From: Hyphomicrobiales bacterium
GTDB lineage: Bacteria > Pseudomonadota > Alphaproteobacteria > Rhizobiales > Aestuariivirgaceae
Reading direction: 5' to 3'
NCBI GenBank assembly: GCA_025359045.1
Contig: JANYHN010000048.1
Location: 62,001-126,000 of the forward strand
Length of the DNA stretch: 64,000 nt
Within the stretch, counting starts at the first letter, position 1; each line of letters starts with the position of its first letter. Positions 47,908 through 62,455 of this stretch are shown here, piece after piece. The notes below the pieces were generated by a model, which was not told where the DNA came from, made no database searches, and worked only from the letters and a program-made list of their open reading frames with translations. The translations under genes were made by a program, and so were the position numbers.

Positions 47908-48090
47908 TGAATTGTTTCCGCCTTTCAACTTACCCGATATTTTGCAAAGGTTCGAAACCTTTTATACGATTAATGCCTCGTCTAGAGCCAGTGTTTTCAG
48001 ATCAGGCTATTGAGCATTCACTCACTCCTTACGCCTACACTGACTTGACTTTCCAGTGGGCGAGCCTAACCTACAATCAATCGCGTAAAT

Positions 48091-48403
48091 CACCATGCGG
48101 GAGAGACTGGTCCTTAAAATCCAGCGCCGAAGGAGCAACCGCCCCGGAAACTCTCAGGCAAAAGGACCGCTTGGTGAAATATAAATCTGGAGAGCAGAGG
48201 TTGGGCCTTAATCGCCCTGCCGCTCACCGAAGGAGAAAGCAGGGTCGTGTCCTAGATCAACCTGACTTTTGACGGAATCGTCAAAAGTCAGCAAAGTTGA
48301 TCGAAGGTAACAACTTAGGGCGCTTTTGACTTTTCCATGAAAAGTCAAAACGCACGAGTGACGATCAGGCGAAAACTCTCAGGTTCCTGACAGAGGGGGC
48401 AGA
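48091..48403 (+). ncRNA. Tandem glycine riboswitch of the gcvT-gcvH-gcvP operon, with an inserted domain in aptamer II
   Basis: Two glycine aptamers lie head to tail before gcvT. Aptamer I spans 48091-48176, closed by CACCATGCGG pairing with CCGCTTGGTG, with the conserved GGGAGAG, CGCCGAAGGAGCAA and ACTCTCAGGCAAAAGGACC. A short linker leads to aptamer II, 48186-48403, with CTGGAGAG, CACCGAAGGAGAAAGC, GCGAAAACTCTCAGG and ACAGAGGGGGCAGA; TCTG/CAGA close it. Between its two core halves an insertion of about 100 nt is closed by TCGTG/CACGA. A GGGC-CTA-GCCC hairpin and an AGGAG (48437-48441) before the gcvT TTG suggest translational or mixed control; glycine should turn the operon on. Bases 47908-48090 hold nothing else recognised. 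Confidence 0.93.
48250..48352 (+). repeat. Structured insertion in aptamer II of the glycine riboswitch
   Basis: The insertion holds a perfect 12-bp hairpin, TGACTTTTGACG / CGTCAAAAGTCA (48263-48274 and 48279-48290, loop GAAT), nested in a 7-bp helix GATCAAC / GTTGATC (48255-48261 and 48296-48302). A second perfect 12-bp hairpin, TTTTGACTTTTC / GAAAAGTCAAAA (48324-48335 and 48339-48350, loop CAT), follows. The two hairpins share words such as TGACTTTT, so cross-pairing is possible. This looks like a palindromic intergenic repeat grafted into the P3 arm. Origin is inferred. Confidence 0.7.
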
Positions 48404-48450
48404 CTCAGTATGCACTGGGCCTAGCCCTTGATTGTCAGGAGACCAAAATA

Positions 48451-49575
48451 TTGAACGAAACTCTTCAACGCACACCCCTTTATGAAGCGCACAAGGCGCT
48501 TGGCGCAAAGCTTGTGCCTTTTGCCGGCTATGAAATGCCGGTGCAATATCCAACTGGCGTACTGGCTGAACATAATTGGACAAGGGCTAATGCGGGCCTT
48601 TTTGATGTGTCTCATATGGGGCAGTGCTTTATCGTTGGCCCAGATTTTGAAACCACATCACGCGCCATGGAAAAATTGGTGCCTGCCGATATTGTGGGCC
48701 TGGCCCCACATCAACAGCGCTATTCTCAGCTACTGAATGAAGGCGGTGGAATTCTTGATGATCTGATGATCACTAGAGCTGCCTATAAAAATTATGAAGG
48801 CTGGCTTTATGTGGTGGTCAATGCCTCGCGCAAGCAACCAGACTATGCGCATATCGAAAACCATTTGCCTGAAGGAATAAAACTCCAGCGCGGCGAAGAC
48901 ATGGCCTTGCTCGCATTGCAGGGGCCTAAAGCTGTCGAAGTTCTGGAAAAATTTGCACCCGCTGCTGCTGATCTCAACTTTATGCACTACGCAGCGCTGG
49001 ATATTGAAGGCATTGCGGCTCATGTCACAAGATGTGGCTACAGTGGCGAAGACGGTTTTGAACTATCGGTCTTTGCGAAAGATGCCGCTCGGTTATGGGA
49101 TTTGCTGATGGTGGATGTTTTAGTGCGACCCATTGGTTTGGGCGCGCGGGATTCATTGCGGCTTGAGGCAGGCCTTTGCTTATATGGTCATGAGCTCGAT
49201 GAAAGCACGTCGCCGAACGAAGCAGGTTTGCTGTGGTCGATTGCCAAACGGCGGCGCGAGGAAGGTGGGTTTATTGGTGCCTCTCGTGTTCAAAAGGAAT
49301 GGGCTCAAGGCGTTTCGCGCAAGCGTGTGGGCATTAGGCCGGATGGGCGCGCGCCGGCACGCGATGGTACCGAAATTCAAAATGTCGACGGTCGCAAAAT
49401 TGGCGTGATTACGTCTGGCGGCTTTGGGCCGACGGTGAATGGCCCGATTGCCATGGGTTATGTTGAAACAGCTTTTGCAGATGTGGGCACGAAAGTGAAC
49501 CTCATCGTGCGCGGACAGGCCCTGCCGGCGCAAATTTTCAAACTCCCTTTCATTCCAAACAATTTCAGACGTTAA
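48451..49575 (+). CDS. gcvT: Glycine cleavage system T protein (aminomethyltransferase)
   Basis: The 374-residue T protein moves the methylene of glycine from the H-protein lipoamide to tetrahydrofolate and releases ammonia. The N-terminus [20 protein letters not shown] and FDVSHMGQ near residue 50, then [10 protein letters not shown] near 98 and [12 protein letters not shown] near 197, match the family, and [22 protein letters not shown] near 233-254 carries the folate-site region. The start is a TTG after AGGAG, at 9 bases. It opens gcvT-gcvH-gcvP under the glycine riboswitch. Length is typical. Confidence 0.95.
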
Positions 49576-49585
49576 AGGAACAGCC

Positions 49586-49951
49586 ATGAACAAAGTATTT
49601 TCGAAAGATCACGAGTGGGTAACGGTTGAAGGCGATGTGGCCACCATCGGAATTACCAACCATGCGCAAGAACAATTGGGCGATGTGGTGTTTGTCGAAC
49701 TGCCAAAGATTGGCGCCAACGTGGTGTGCGACGCCTCCATCGCGGTGGTTGAAAGTGTGAAGGCTGCAAGTGAGATCTATGTGCCAGTGTCTGGTGAAAT
49801 TGTTGCGATCAACAATGAGCTGACAGGAGACCCCGCTTTGGTCAACCGTGATGCGGAAGGCGAAGCGTGGTTTTTTAAAGTGAAGCTCGCCAAGCCCGAT
49901 GAGCTTGCCAAGCTGATGGATAAAGCTGCTTACGATAAGTTTGTGGGGTAA
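49586..49951 (+). CDS. gcvH: Glycine cleavage system H protein
   Basis: The 121-residue lipoyl carrier shuttles the aminomethyl group between P, T and L proteins. The lipoylated lysine is K59 in [12 protein letters not shown]. The opening [20 protein letters not shown] and the closing [11 protein letters not shown] are the normal ends. It starts 10 bases after gcvT with GGAA as its likely ribosome site and is followed by gcvP 3 bases later. It is full length with no visible defect. Confidence 0.96.
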
Positions 49952-49954
49952 GAA

Positions 49955-52777
49955 ATGACGACCGACTTTATTGCCCGCCACATCGGCCCTTCTGCTGCTG
50001 ATACAGCCGCGATGCTTAAAGTACTAGGTGCAACGTCGCTTGATGATTTCATCAACAAGGCCGTGCCTGTAGAAATCCGTTCCAAGCGCGCATTAGAACT
50101 TCGCCCTGCCTTAAATGAGCGTGATGCGCTTTCGCATTTGCGTAAAGTTGCAGATAAGAATCAAGTTTTCACATCAATGATCGGCATGGGATATTATGGC
50201 ACGATCACGCCAAATGTTATTCTGCGCAACGTGTTGGAAAACCCCGGCTGGTATACGGCTTACACACCCTATCAAGCAGAGGTGAGCCAAGGCCGTCTTG
50301 AGGCGCTGCTAAATTATCAGCAAATGGTTGTGGATTTGACGGGTATGGAAATTGCCAACGCTTCGCTGCTTGATGAAGCAACGGCGGCGGCTGAAGCTAT
50401 GGTTATGGCCAAGCGCGTGGCGAAATCATCAGCTTCAGTATTTTTTGTAGATTCTGATACACATCCACAAACGATTGCTGTGTTGCAAACGCGGGCGCGT
50501 GGTTTCGGTATTCAAATTGAAATTGGTGATCCACTTGTGGATTTAAAACCTGCGAAAGTTTTTGCGGGTCTGTTTTCATATCCGGGCTCTTCAGGGCAGC
50601 TACGTGATTTCACATCCACTATTTCTGACCTACATGGCGCTGGCGCATTGGCGATTGTGGCTTCGGATCTACTAGCGCTGGCACTGCTCAAATCTCCCGG
50701 TGAAATGGGTGCTGACATTGCTTTGGGTTCGGCCCAGCGTTTTGGTGTTCCCATGGGTTACGGCGGGCCACACGCGGCTTTTTTTGCCACGAAAGATGAA
50801 TTTAAACGGGTAATGCCTGGCCGTCTGATTGGTGTTTCGGTTGATGCCAAGGGCAACCGCGCCTTGCGCATGGCGTTGCAAACACGCGAGCAGCATATCC
50901 GCCGCGATAAAGCCACCAGCAATATCTGCACGGCGCAAGTTTTACTTTCGGTAATGGCGGCAATGTATGCCACCTATCATGGGCCAGAAGGTATTCGGTC
51001 GATTGCAAACCATGCGCATCAATGCGCAGCACAGTTTGCGGAAGCCGTGAGAGTTGCGGGCTTCTTAATTGTGAATGATGGTTTCTTTGACACGGTAACA
51101 GTTCGCACTTTTGGTAACGCCAAGAAGATTGTGGCAGCGGCCAAGAAGTTAAGAATTAATTTGCGGTTAGTCGATGTTGATCGTGTCGCCGTGGCCTTTG
51201 ATGAGAGCACGCGCGAAGATGATTTGATCCGGGCACTGAGCGTATTCGGTGCGAAACTTGGCAAGAGTGCAGCTGGCATTCCGACCCAACTTAAGCGTCA
51301 ATCGGAATATCTCACCCATCCCATATTCAGTTCTTATCATTCTGAAACCGAGATGATGCGTTATCTGCGTCATCTTCAATCAAAGGACCTTGCGCTTGAT
51401 CAAGCGATGATTCCACTTGGTTCATGCACCATGAAGCTCAATGCCGCATCAGAAATGATCCCCGTCACTTGGCGGAATTTTGCGCATATGCATCCCTTTG
51501 CTCCTGTTGATCAAGCTAAAGGTTATGCTGAGTTGTTTGATGATCTTCAAAAAATGCTCTGTGAAATAACGGGATTTGATGCGGTGTCGTTGCAGCCGAA
51601 CGCTGGCAGCCAAGGTGAATTTGCGGGGCTTTTGGCGATCCGTGATTATCATGATGCGAGTGGCGGAAAAAATCGCGATGTGTGTTTAATTCCTGTGTCG
51701 GCTCATGGCACCAACCCAGCCTCTGCTGCTATGTGTGGCATGAAAATTGTGGTGGTGGCGTGCGATCTGCACGGAAATGTGGATGTGGCTGATCTTGAAG
51801 CCAAGGCAAAGACCAATGCTGCAAACCTTGCCGCGCTCATGATCACCTATCCTTCAACCCATGGCGTGTTTGAAAATTCGATCATCGACATTTGTAAAAT
51901 CATTCACGACAATGGTGGCCAAGTTTACCTTGATGGCGCCAACCTTAATGCCCAAGTTGGCTTGATGCGGCCTGCAGAACTTGGCGCTGATGTATGCCAT
52001 ATGAATTTACACAAGACCTTCTGCATTCCACATGGCGGAGGCGGGCCCGGCATGGGTCCAATCGGTGTGCGGGCGCATTTAATTCCATATCTGCCGGGGC
52101 ATAGTGTAATTGCGATCGACAAACGCAAGAAGCACGCGGTTTCCGCAGCACCATGGGGTTCGGCTTCAATTCTTCCGATCTCATGGATGTACATCGCGAT
52201 GATGGGGGGAGAGGGTTTAACGCAGGCAACAAAGATCGCCATTCTCAGCGCCAATTATATAGCCAAGCGGTTAAACCCGCATTTTCCAGTGCTTTACACA
52301 AGCGCTTCGGGCCATGTGGCGCATGAGTGCATTATTGATCTACGCTGGATGAAAGAACGGGCGGGAATCACAGTGGACGATGTGGCCAAGCGCCTTGCTG
52401 ATTATGGTTTCCACGCGCCGACCATGAGTTTCCCAGTGGTTGATACATTGATGATCGAGCCTACAGAATCCGAAGCCAAGCGAGAGCTTGATCGGTATTG
52501 TGATGCGATGATCGCCATTGCGGGCGAGATTTCTGATGTGGAACATGGCCGCGCCGATAAGGTGGATAACGTGCTGAAAAATGCACCGCACACACATGGC
52601 GAATTGTTTGGTGAATGGCCGCATCCTTATTCAAAAGAGCAAGCCTTCTTCCCGCTCAAAGGTTACACCAATGATAAATATTGGCCGACTGTTGCGCGGG
52701 TCGACAATGTTTACGGTGATCGCAACTTGATGTGCACGTGCCCACCGATTGAAGAATATCTGGAGGCAGCCGAATAA
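49955..52777 (+). CDS. gcvP: Glycine dehydrogenase (decarboxylating), P protein
   Basis: The 940-residue single-chain P protein decarboxylates glycine with PLP and loads the aminomethyl group on GcvH. It has both halves fused: the N-terminal half includes [18 protein letters not shown] near residue 73, and the C-terminal half bears the PLP lysine in [19 protein letters not shown] near residue 690. ARHIGPS at the start and [16 protein letters not shown] near 487 are typical. The ATG at 49955 is 3 bases after gcvH. Its end overlaps the frame of the next gene only if that starts upstream; the chosen aspA start is one base beyond its stop. Confidence 0.95.
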
Positions 52778-61825: not shown

Positions 61826-62455
61826 TTAAGCGAGCAGCGGATCTACATATTTCTTCAAATCAGCAAGCGTGCGTTCGCCTTCCCACAGCTTACCATTAAT
61901 GAAAATTGTCGGAATGCCCTTGATGCCATAAGACTTGTCGCCCTTATCGCGCGTTTCCATAATGCCTTTGGCCACATCAGTATTCTTCAAACACTTATCA
62001 AAGTCGTCAGCTGACATGCCTGTTTGTTTAGCAATGTCTTTCAGCTGATTGTAAGCATCAGGCACCCATTTCTGTTGGGTTTTAAAGAAAATATCGATCA
62101 GGGGGAAGTATTTTTCCTTGGCCGAACAGCGCGCCAACATAAACGCGCCCATGGCCTGATCATTATGTGGGAATTCGCGGAAAATGAATTTCACTTTACC
62201 AGTATCAACATAATCTTTTTTGAATGGCACATAAACGTCGTTATAAAACGCCGCACAATGCGGACAACTGGCCGAGGCGTATTCTACGATAGTCACCTTA
62301 GCCGTATCTACGCCTTCAATCATATCGCCTTCCTTTGGCGGAGTTAGAAGGTCGGTCAAATCGACTTTCGCGTCTTCAGCAAAAGCGGGCGTGGCGGCGG
62401 CCAAAGCAACAGCTGCGGCACCAACCATTAGATTGCGGCGGGATATAATAATCAT
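61826..62455 (-). CDS. DsbA-family periplasmic thiol-disulfide oxidoreductase
   Basis: The 209-residue protein has a twin-arginine-like signal, SRRNLMVGAAAVALAAAT near residues 5-22, with a likely cleavage after AFA, then a DsbA/DsbG-type thioredoxin-fold domain. The active site is CPHC in ASCPHCAAFYNDVY near residue 64. A cis-proline region IKGIPTIFINGK near 182 completes the fold. It should work in the periplasm to form or isomerise disulfides. Its start overlaps the DUF721 gene by 4 bases, and it is followed by smc, as is usual in Hyphomicrobiales. Confidence 0.88.
   Translation of the reverse strand: MIIISRRNLMVGAAAVALAAATPAFAEDAKVDLTDLLTPPKEGDMIEGVDTAKVTIVEYASASCPHCAAFYNDVYVPFKKDYVDTGKVKFIFREFPHNDQAMGAFMLARCSAKEKYFPLIDIFFKTQQKWVPDAYNQLKDIAKQTGMSADDFDKCLKNTDVAKGIMETRDKGDKSYGIKGIPTIFINGKLWEGERTLADLKKYVDPLLA

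Follow-up and report, generated by a model that had tools for sequence, protein, structure and literature searches.

The second aptamer of a tandem glycine riboswitch in a Hyphomicrobiales bacterium is interrupted by a 103-nt insertion in the loop of its P3b arm. Very probably, a MITE-like palindromic repeat inserted into this loop in this lineage, its hairpins lie away from the glycine-binding core, and the switch most likely still works. The window, meaning the whole stretch of DNA analysed here, is 64,000 nt long (positions 62,001 to 126,000 of contig JANYHN010000048.1), and its positions 48088-48403 hold the riboswitch, 5' of gcvT-gcvH-gcvP. The genome that contains it (G000) was compared with others of its genus, of which the sister genome G020 is the nearest relative. 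The features concerned are listed below in window coordinates.

48088..48179, + strand: glycine riboswitch aptamer I (RF00504, 77.2 bits)
48177..48403, + strand: glycine riboswitch aptamer II, insertion included (full-length RF00504 match, 30.4 bits, below the 32-bit cut-off)
48243..48248, + strand: native P3b stem, 5' strand GGTCGT (common to sister G020; predicted partner 48361-48366, at 0.68-0.85 when aptamer II is folded alone)
48253..48254, + strand: target dinucleotide, left copy TA (empty-site comparison)
48255..48355, + strand: inserted dispersed palindromic repeat, 101 nt, MITE-like (dispersed matches in its own genome; matches in 13 of 37 genus genomes)
48255..48302, + strand: hairpin A, an outer 7-bp helix 48255-48261/48296-48302 around a 13-bp helix 48262-48274/48279-48291 (exact helices and predicted ensemble)
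48324..48350, + strand: hairpin B, a 12-bp helix 48324-48335/48339-48350 (exact helix and predicted ensemble)
48356..48357, + strand: target dinucleotide, right copy GA, present once in the sister's empty loop (empty-site comparison)
48361..48366, + strand: native P3b stem, 3' strand ACGATC (comparison with sister G020; folding of aptamer II)
48385..48392, + strand: TCCTGACA, in the 3' part of aptamer II, a complement of the Shine-Dalgarno region (forms an 8-bp inverted repeat with 48433-48440; predicted paired at 0.82-1.0)
48433..48440, + strand: TGTCAGGA, overlapping the gcvT Shine-Dalgarno AGGAG (inverted repeat and predicted pairing)
48451..49575, + strand: gcvT (aminomethyltransferase), the controlled gene (Pfam GCV_T, 1.6e-78)
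49586..49951, + strand: gcvH (Pfam GCV_H, 3.1e-41)
49955..52777, + strand: gcvP (Pfam GDC-P, 1e-188)

Aptamer I is canonical, with the RF00504 core and the P1-P2-P3 fold. Aptamer II aligns over model positions 1-94 in a single-genome RF00504 search (G000:C9:110177-110403, which is window 48177-48403), at 1.6 bits below the Rfam cut-off, and the aptamer II of G020 scores 43.2. It is unlisted at the gathering cut-off, and equally so in a cmscan of 48000-48500 that went up to E 10. The first-pass annotation had proposed such a search to find out whether the second aptamer is degraded; the outcome is a near miss, in that the alignment runs the full length of the model and the score falls short. 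A single block in the P3b arm accounts for the additional length. The predicted helix between TCCTGACA and TGTCAGGA covers the gcvT Shine-Dalgarno, and the motifs CTGACAGA and GTCAGGA occur in 12 of the 15 genus leaders examined, the window's own included (the search expression gave no match in the other three). By this pairing and these motifs, the leader looks like a translational ON switch, as in Neisseria gonorrhoeae gcvT, whose leader is described in the available text as a tandem translational ON switch that, when OFF, hides the ribosome-binding site with a segment of aptamer 2 (PMC13104608). Without glycine, TCCTGACA would mask the Shine-Dalgarno region, and glycine binding would release the masking.

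Where does the foreign sequence begin and end? The uninterrupted loop of G020 reads GGTCGTGTCGGAGTGACGACC; the window has GGTCGTGTC, then the element, then GAGTGACGATC. The first-pass annotation had correctly seen that the halves of aptamer II are parted by a structured insertion, but the position that it gave, 48250-48352, must be moved, as the sister comparison puts the element at 48255-48355 between the TA at 48253-48254 and the GA at 48356-48357. The helix TCGTG/CACGA that it took to close the insertion exists as complementarity (48245-48249/48353-48357) but has a probability of 0.0 in the leader ensemble, and the native P3b stem GGTCGT/ACGATC closes the insert instead. Its 7-bp outer helix and second 12-bp hairpin were found as described, while the inner helix, given as 12 bp, is 13 bp long. 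The segment 48240-48362 folds with z = -7.4 relative to shuffles. Palindromes of the form TTTTGAC..GTCAAAA, a pattern picked only after the insert was seen, occur twice in the window, both times inside the insert, where 0.02 are expected, and TTTTGACTTTT, with one mismatch allowed, is not enriched in the window beyond the insert. The insert holds no reading frame of 100 aa. Its 37-nt end arms are 76% complementary and the repeat consensus ends in CTAGA...TCTAG (YTAR-like), although the internal palindromes blur a reading of either as terminal inverted repeats.

The inserted sequence belongs to a dispersed family. The 3.18-Mb genome has at least 38 matches among those listed at E<=10, overlapping palindrome matches counted; ten are longer copies, the riboswitch copy included (58-113 nt, 79-100% identity), and shorter palindromic pieces accompany them. 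Matches at E<=0.001 were obtained in 13 of the 37 genus genomes, most of them in G020 and G014, with at least 28 listed in each from the part of the candidates that was scored. The search of the insertion against genome and relatives that the first-pass annotation had advised thus returned copies in both. When 28 of the 30 collected copies were aligned (L007 and L012 were excluded as incomplete), 824 of 867 pair cells were standard and 12 of 31 pairs had changed on both sides, so the hairpins are conserved as hairpins. Several relatives join the hairpin A unit to another second unit, and hairpin B units that seem to be solitary are found as well, which makes the family a mosaic. Hairpin A with differing second units is seen at L058, L068 and L077 of G014 and at L063, L070 and L079 of G002, an architecture that presumably resembles BIME or RIME elements. 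Mechanical frames of at least 70 aa overlap 25 of the 30 copies by no more than 50 nt; the remaining five (L006, L083, L086, L097 and L101) are wholly or nearly covered by such frames. The repeat is short, dispersed, multi-copy and without a gene of its own, as expected of a MITE. Two contig ends lie inside repeat copies (G000:C9:1-36 and G000:C53:102679-102777), as expected of assembly breaks at repeats. An Rfam scan of 20 other-copy loci (L004-L012, L082-L092) listed no RNA family at gathering score; thus no second riboswitch capture by the repeat is seen there.

A riboswitch match was found in 32 of the 36 same-genus relatives, and in all 32 aptamer II measures 104-124 nt as against 227 nt here; the other four gave no riboswitch match. 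Among the same-genus genomes compared, the insertion is seen in the window's genome only. The proposal in the first-pass annotation that the riboswitch has captured a palindromic repeat is supported by the dispersed copies, the empty site in G020 and the short aptamer II of every relative with a match. Its counter-case, that close relatives might share the insertion as a normal P3 arm, does not apply, since all 32 are short. The length of P3b does vary across the order and the genome is a 76-contig draft, and one could accordingly ask whether the block is simply a long P3 arm of the lineage or an artefact of assembly. The short relatives already contradict a lineage arm, and an artefact would have to produce an insert that matches other genomic copies, between riboswitch flanks that match G020 on both sides, deep within a 203-kb contig. 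We consider both highly improbable.

How did the repeat enter the loop? Eight occupied/empty pairs were tried between G000 and G020, and two of these could not be read (L008, and L007, which lies at a contig end). In five of the six compared pairs, the occupied site has two dinucleotides and the empty site a single one, which is TA in L006 and L010, CA in L084, TG in L005 and GA in L003, the riboswitch; L011 is not clear. The riboswitch element has TA on its left and GA on its right, so the duplication there is not exact. These five of six readable pairs fit a 2-bp TA-like duplication, some inexactly, and by them the element behaves like a TA-targeting MITE. Furthermore, TA stands at a fixed offset on the left of 20 of 30 copies, on the right of 16 of 29, and on both sides of 12. 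In the available text of PMC2170065, Tc1/mariner and IS630 elements have TA duplications at their flanks, and a reference title cited there gives the TA in CTAG as the preference of IS630; IS711 of Brucella appears to duplicate the TA of YTAR and is associated with palindromic Bru-RS repeats, according to the available text of PMC2266754. The TA-like duplications, the CTAGA...TCTAG ends and the TA flanks together fit TA-targeting DDE transposases. We infer that an approximately 101-bp MITE-like palindromic repeat, mobilised in trans by a TA-targeting transposase, entered the apical loop of P3b. The break in the loop (GTGTCGGAGTGAC in relatives) would lie between GTGTC and GAGTGAC, with the target dinucleotide duplicated and the P3b stem beneath the insert left whole.

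The two-unit palindromic architecture also calls to mind REP-type elements, whose single-stranded hairpins are the substrate of the Y1 (RAYT) transposase that moves them. The transposase search of the genus genomes was for Y1_Tnp, which occurs in 7 of 37: in four of the 13 repeat-bearing genomes (G000, G002, G015 and G020) and in three of the 24 others. In G002, a half copy consisting of hairpin A lies about 0.7 kb from a Y1_Tnp match (L107 2471-2522). Yet nine of the 13 repeat-bearing genomes have no Y1_Tnp match, G014 with its many listed repeats among them, the repeat was not found to flank a Y1 gene of its own genome, the Y1_Tnp loci of G000 and G020 being devoid of element copies, and the empty sites fit a dinucleotide duplication. 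A RAYT origin is thus disfavoured, and we rate it as distinctly unlikely. Structure-guided targeting was also considered. With the flanks of 29 of the 30 copies joined, the mean folding z was -0.54, compared with -0.26 in windows 250-400 nt away (29 sites, 116 controls, one-sided p = 0.026); with the riboswitch site itself at z = -0.03, this is too weak to claim targeting.

The insertion in the window has counterparts at this position in other genomes. We searched 397 genomes of the order, 346 of which have a riboswitch match, with patterns that describe an aptamer II whose P3b is enlarged. After removal of false matches, 15 genomes from nine families have the enlarged arm (by family: G000; G348; G116; G143; G321, G098 and G051; G057, G137 and G102; G248; G052; G047, G094 and G183). 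Dropped were matches that span aptamer I to II (G072 in two places, G212, G139, G250, G104 and G175) or that lack aptamer context (G184 and G091). Repetition within the genome was examined for the inserts of G000, G248 and the group of G051, G321 and G098. The G248 insert recurs at 28 places in its own genome and matches 62 places in a Methylobacterium MAG (L123), whose own aptamer II P3b contains a palindrome similar to it; three other Methylobacterium MAGs have a short aptamer II P3b. In both G248 and the Methylobacterium MAG, what occupies P3b is a palindromic repeat present in many copies in the respective genome. The G051 insert recurs at one other place in its own genome, which rules it out as a high-copy repeat, and in G321 and G098 it is found in the riboswitch alone. 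With so few copies, this family (f16) looks like one old insertion. The P3b loop of G051 (L190/L225) has two tandem palindromic units where its relatives G321 and G098 have one, which suggests that the insertion is old and underwent a later duplication in G051. G047, G094 and G183 (L191/L224, L222 and L223), all of one genus, have in common a large, structured P3b insert of about 150 nt. Near the glycine riboswitch of G098, a Whalefall-1 RNA match scores 37.2 bits with a cut-off of 37 (L207 2870-2922).

The corresponding pattern for aptamer I, run on the 397 genomes with the shorter of two length ranges, returned no enlarged P3b. It matched 67 genomes, and these matches, going by their first 80 bases, are short-P3b aptamers I that continue into aptamer II or lack aptamer context. 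In the loci collected, 21 distinct aptamer-I-type P3b segments measure 13-39 nt, a few of which may be from aptamer II. The aptamer I of G348 is 112 nt long. That of G143 (L204 1215-1385) reaches 171 nt through a large P2 arm, and its leader also has an aptamer II with an enlarged P3b; arms other than the latter can thus grow too. The parallel cases in other lineages argue for the P3b loop of aptamer II as a recurrent permissive site, on the pattern matches and copy counts above. Other palindromic repeats occupy it in other lineages of the order, and insertions would survive there because the loop is peripheral. Targeting of the loop is weakly hinted. It is doubtful that mobile palindromic repeats in Hyphomicrobiales favour the P3b stem-loop of glycine aptamer II through structure-guided targeting, and that riboswitches regularly acquire peripheral domains by such captures, with their folding or cooperativity retuned; the large P2 arm in aptamer I of G143 lowers the probability of this view.

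Has the insertion harmed the switch? In the predicted folds, the RNA of the insert would form two self-contained hairpins atop P3b, away from the glycine-binding core, and from this placement the leader is most likely still a translational ON switch. The P3b stem GGTCGT/ACGATC is kept, with one C-to-U change relative to G020 that yields a G-U pair. When aptamer II is folded alone, P3b pairs at 0.68-0.85 (0.83-0.91 in G020) and P2 at 0.84-0.85 (0.91-0.92 in G020); P1 is unpredicted in both genomes (0.02 and 0.0). In the whole leader, P3b pairing is 0.39-0.49 as against 0.91-0.99 in G020, which is evidence for some disturbance in a calculation blind to glycine and to tertiary contacts. The most likely effect on switching, by these models, is that the insertion is tolerated.

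A less benign view would be that aptamer II is broken or weakened and the riboswitch is decaying, with aptamer I doing most of the sensing or gcvT less well regulated. The sub-threshold score speaks for it, as does a P3b pairing that in the whole leader is roughly half the sister's, and so does the gathering-score scan of ten enlarged-aptamer-II loci, in which aptamer II is listed in L123 and L203 and unlisted in the other eight, even though two of these pass in the other RF00504 search (G047 at 37.5 and G051 at 39.4 bits). We nevertheless regard it as unlikely. The core letters CCGAAGGAG and ACTCTCAGG and the Shine-Dalgarno helix are retained, the P3b stem has changed only to a G-U pair, aptamer II alone folds much as the sister's does, and the comparable interrupted aptamer II of the Methylobacterium MAG stands above the cut-off at 36.2 bits. 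The statement in the first-pass annotation that the conserved core is unbroken accordingly holds for the core letters, and is qualified by the score. Conversely, the insert might have been co-opted, its hairpins serving as an RNase III site, a stabiliser or a folding delay that tunes the switch. The three helices of the riboswitch copy are perfect, folding of aptamer II alone predicts them with near certainty, and the loop is a recurrent site of repeats; perfect hairpins are, however, to be expected of any young copy, and this insertion was seen in one genome only. Co-option therefore seems to us rather improbable, and tolerance of a MITE-like repeat remains the preferred reading.

Neither palindromic repeats nor MITEs are new, and P3b arms are known to differ in length. 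RIME and Bru-RS elements are about 100 bp long with two palindromes. RIME and the Bru-RS1 and Bru-RS2 repeats of Brucella are described as palindromic in the available text of PMC2573895 and PMC2266754, and our repeat is likewise a palindromic dispersed repeat in Hyphomicrobiales, a likeness drawn from these descriptions; the insert had no match in 72,556 plasmid records. Like TA-targeting prokaryotic MITEs of the IS630/Tc1-mariner type or of the IS711 type with its YTAR target, it is short, geneless, present in many copies and hairpin-forming, with TA-like duplications and CTAG/YTAR-like ends. It differs from them in that its putative terminal inverted repeats are short and imperfect, and its putative parent transposase is deduced from the target sites. 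Rickettsia palindromic elements are also repeats tolerated within genes, but those described in the available text of PMC10969869 lie within protein genes, whereas the window's repeat lies within a riboswitch aptamer. The leader itself resembles that of N. gonorrhoeae in having two aptamers before gcvT and an aptamer 2 segment that pairs with the ribosome-binding site, as given in the available text, and differs from it in that P3b of aptamer II contains a 103-nt mobile repeat; the words "insertion" and "Correia" are absent from the main text of that paper (PMC13104608). A MITE review, in its available text, treats MITEs forming riboswitches as merely conceivable. Our literature search met no paper that describes a riboswitch aptamer with a mobile repeat in it, which is weak evidence of absence as subscription papers were mostly outside its reach.

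On this comparative evidence, a short hairpin-forming mobile repeat appears to occupy a spare loop of a glycine switch with its core not visibly broken, and in at least two further lineages of the order this loop holds hairpin repeats of other kinds. The insert in one genome and the empty loop in its sister make a natural pair for a mobile repeat within a ligand-binding RNA, accompanied by parallel cases in other lineages. They also give a warning: aptamers with large loop insertions can drop below curated cut-offs and escape annotation. Do riboswitch peripheral arms grow through the capture of mobile hairpins, and does a tandem glycine switch need the P3b geometry of aptamer II? Both questions are thereby made testable.
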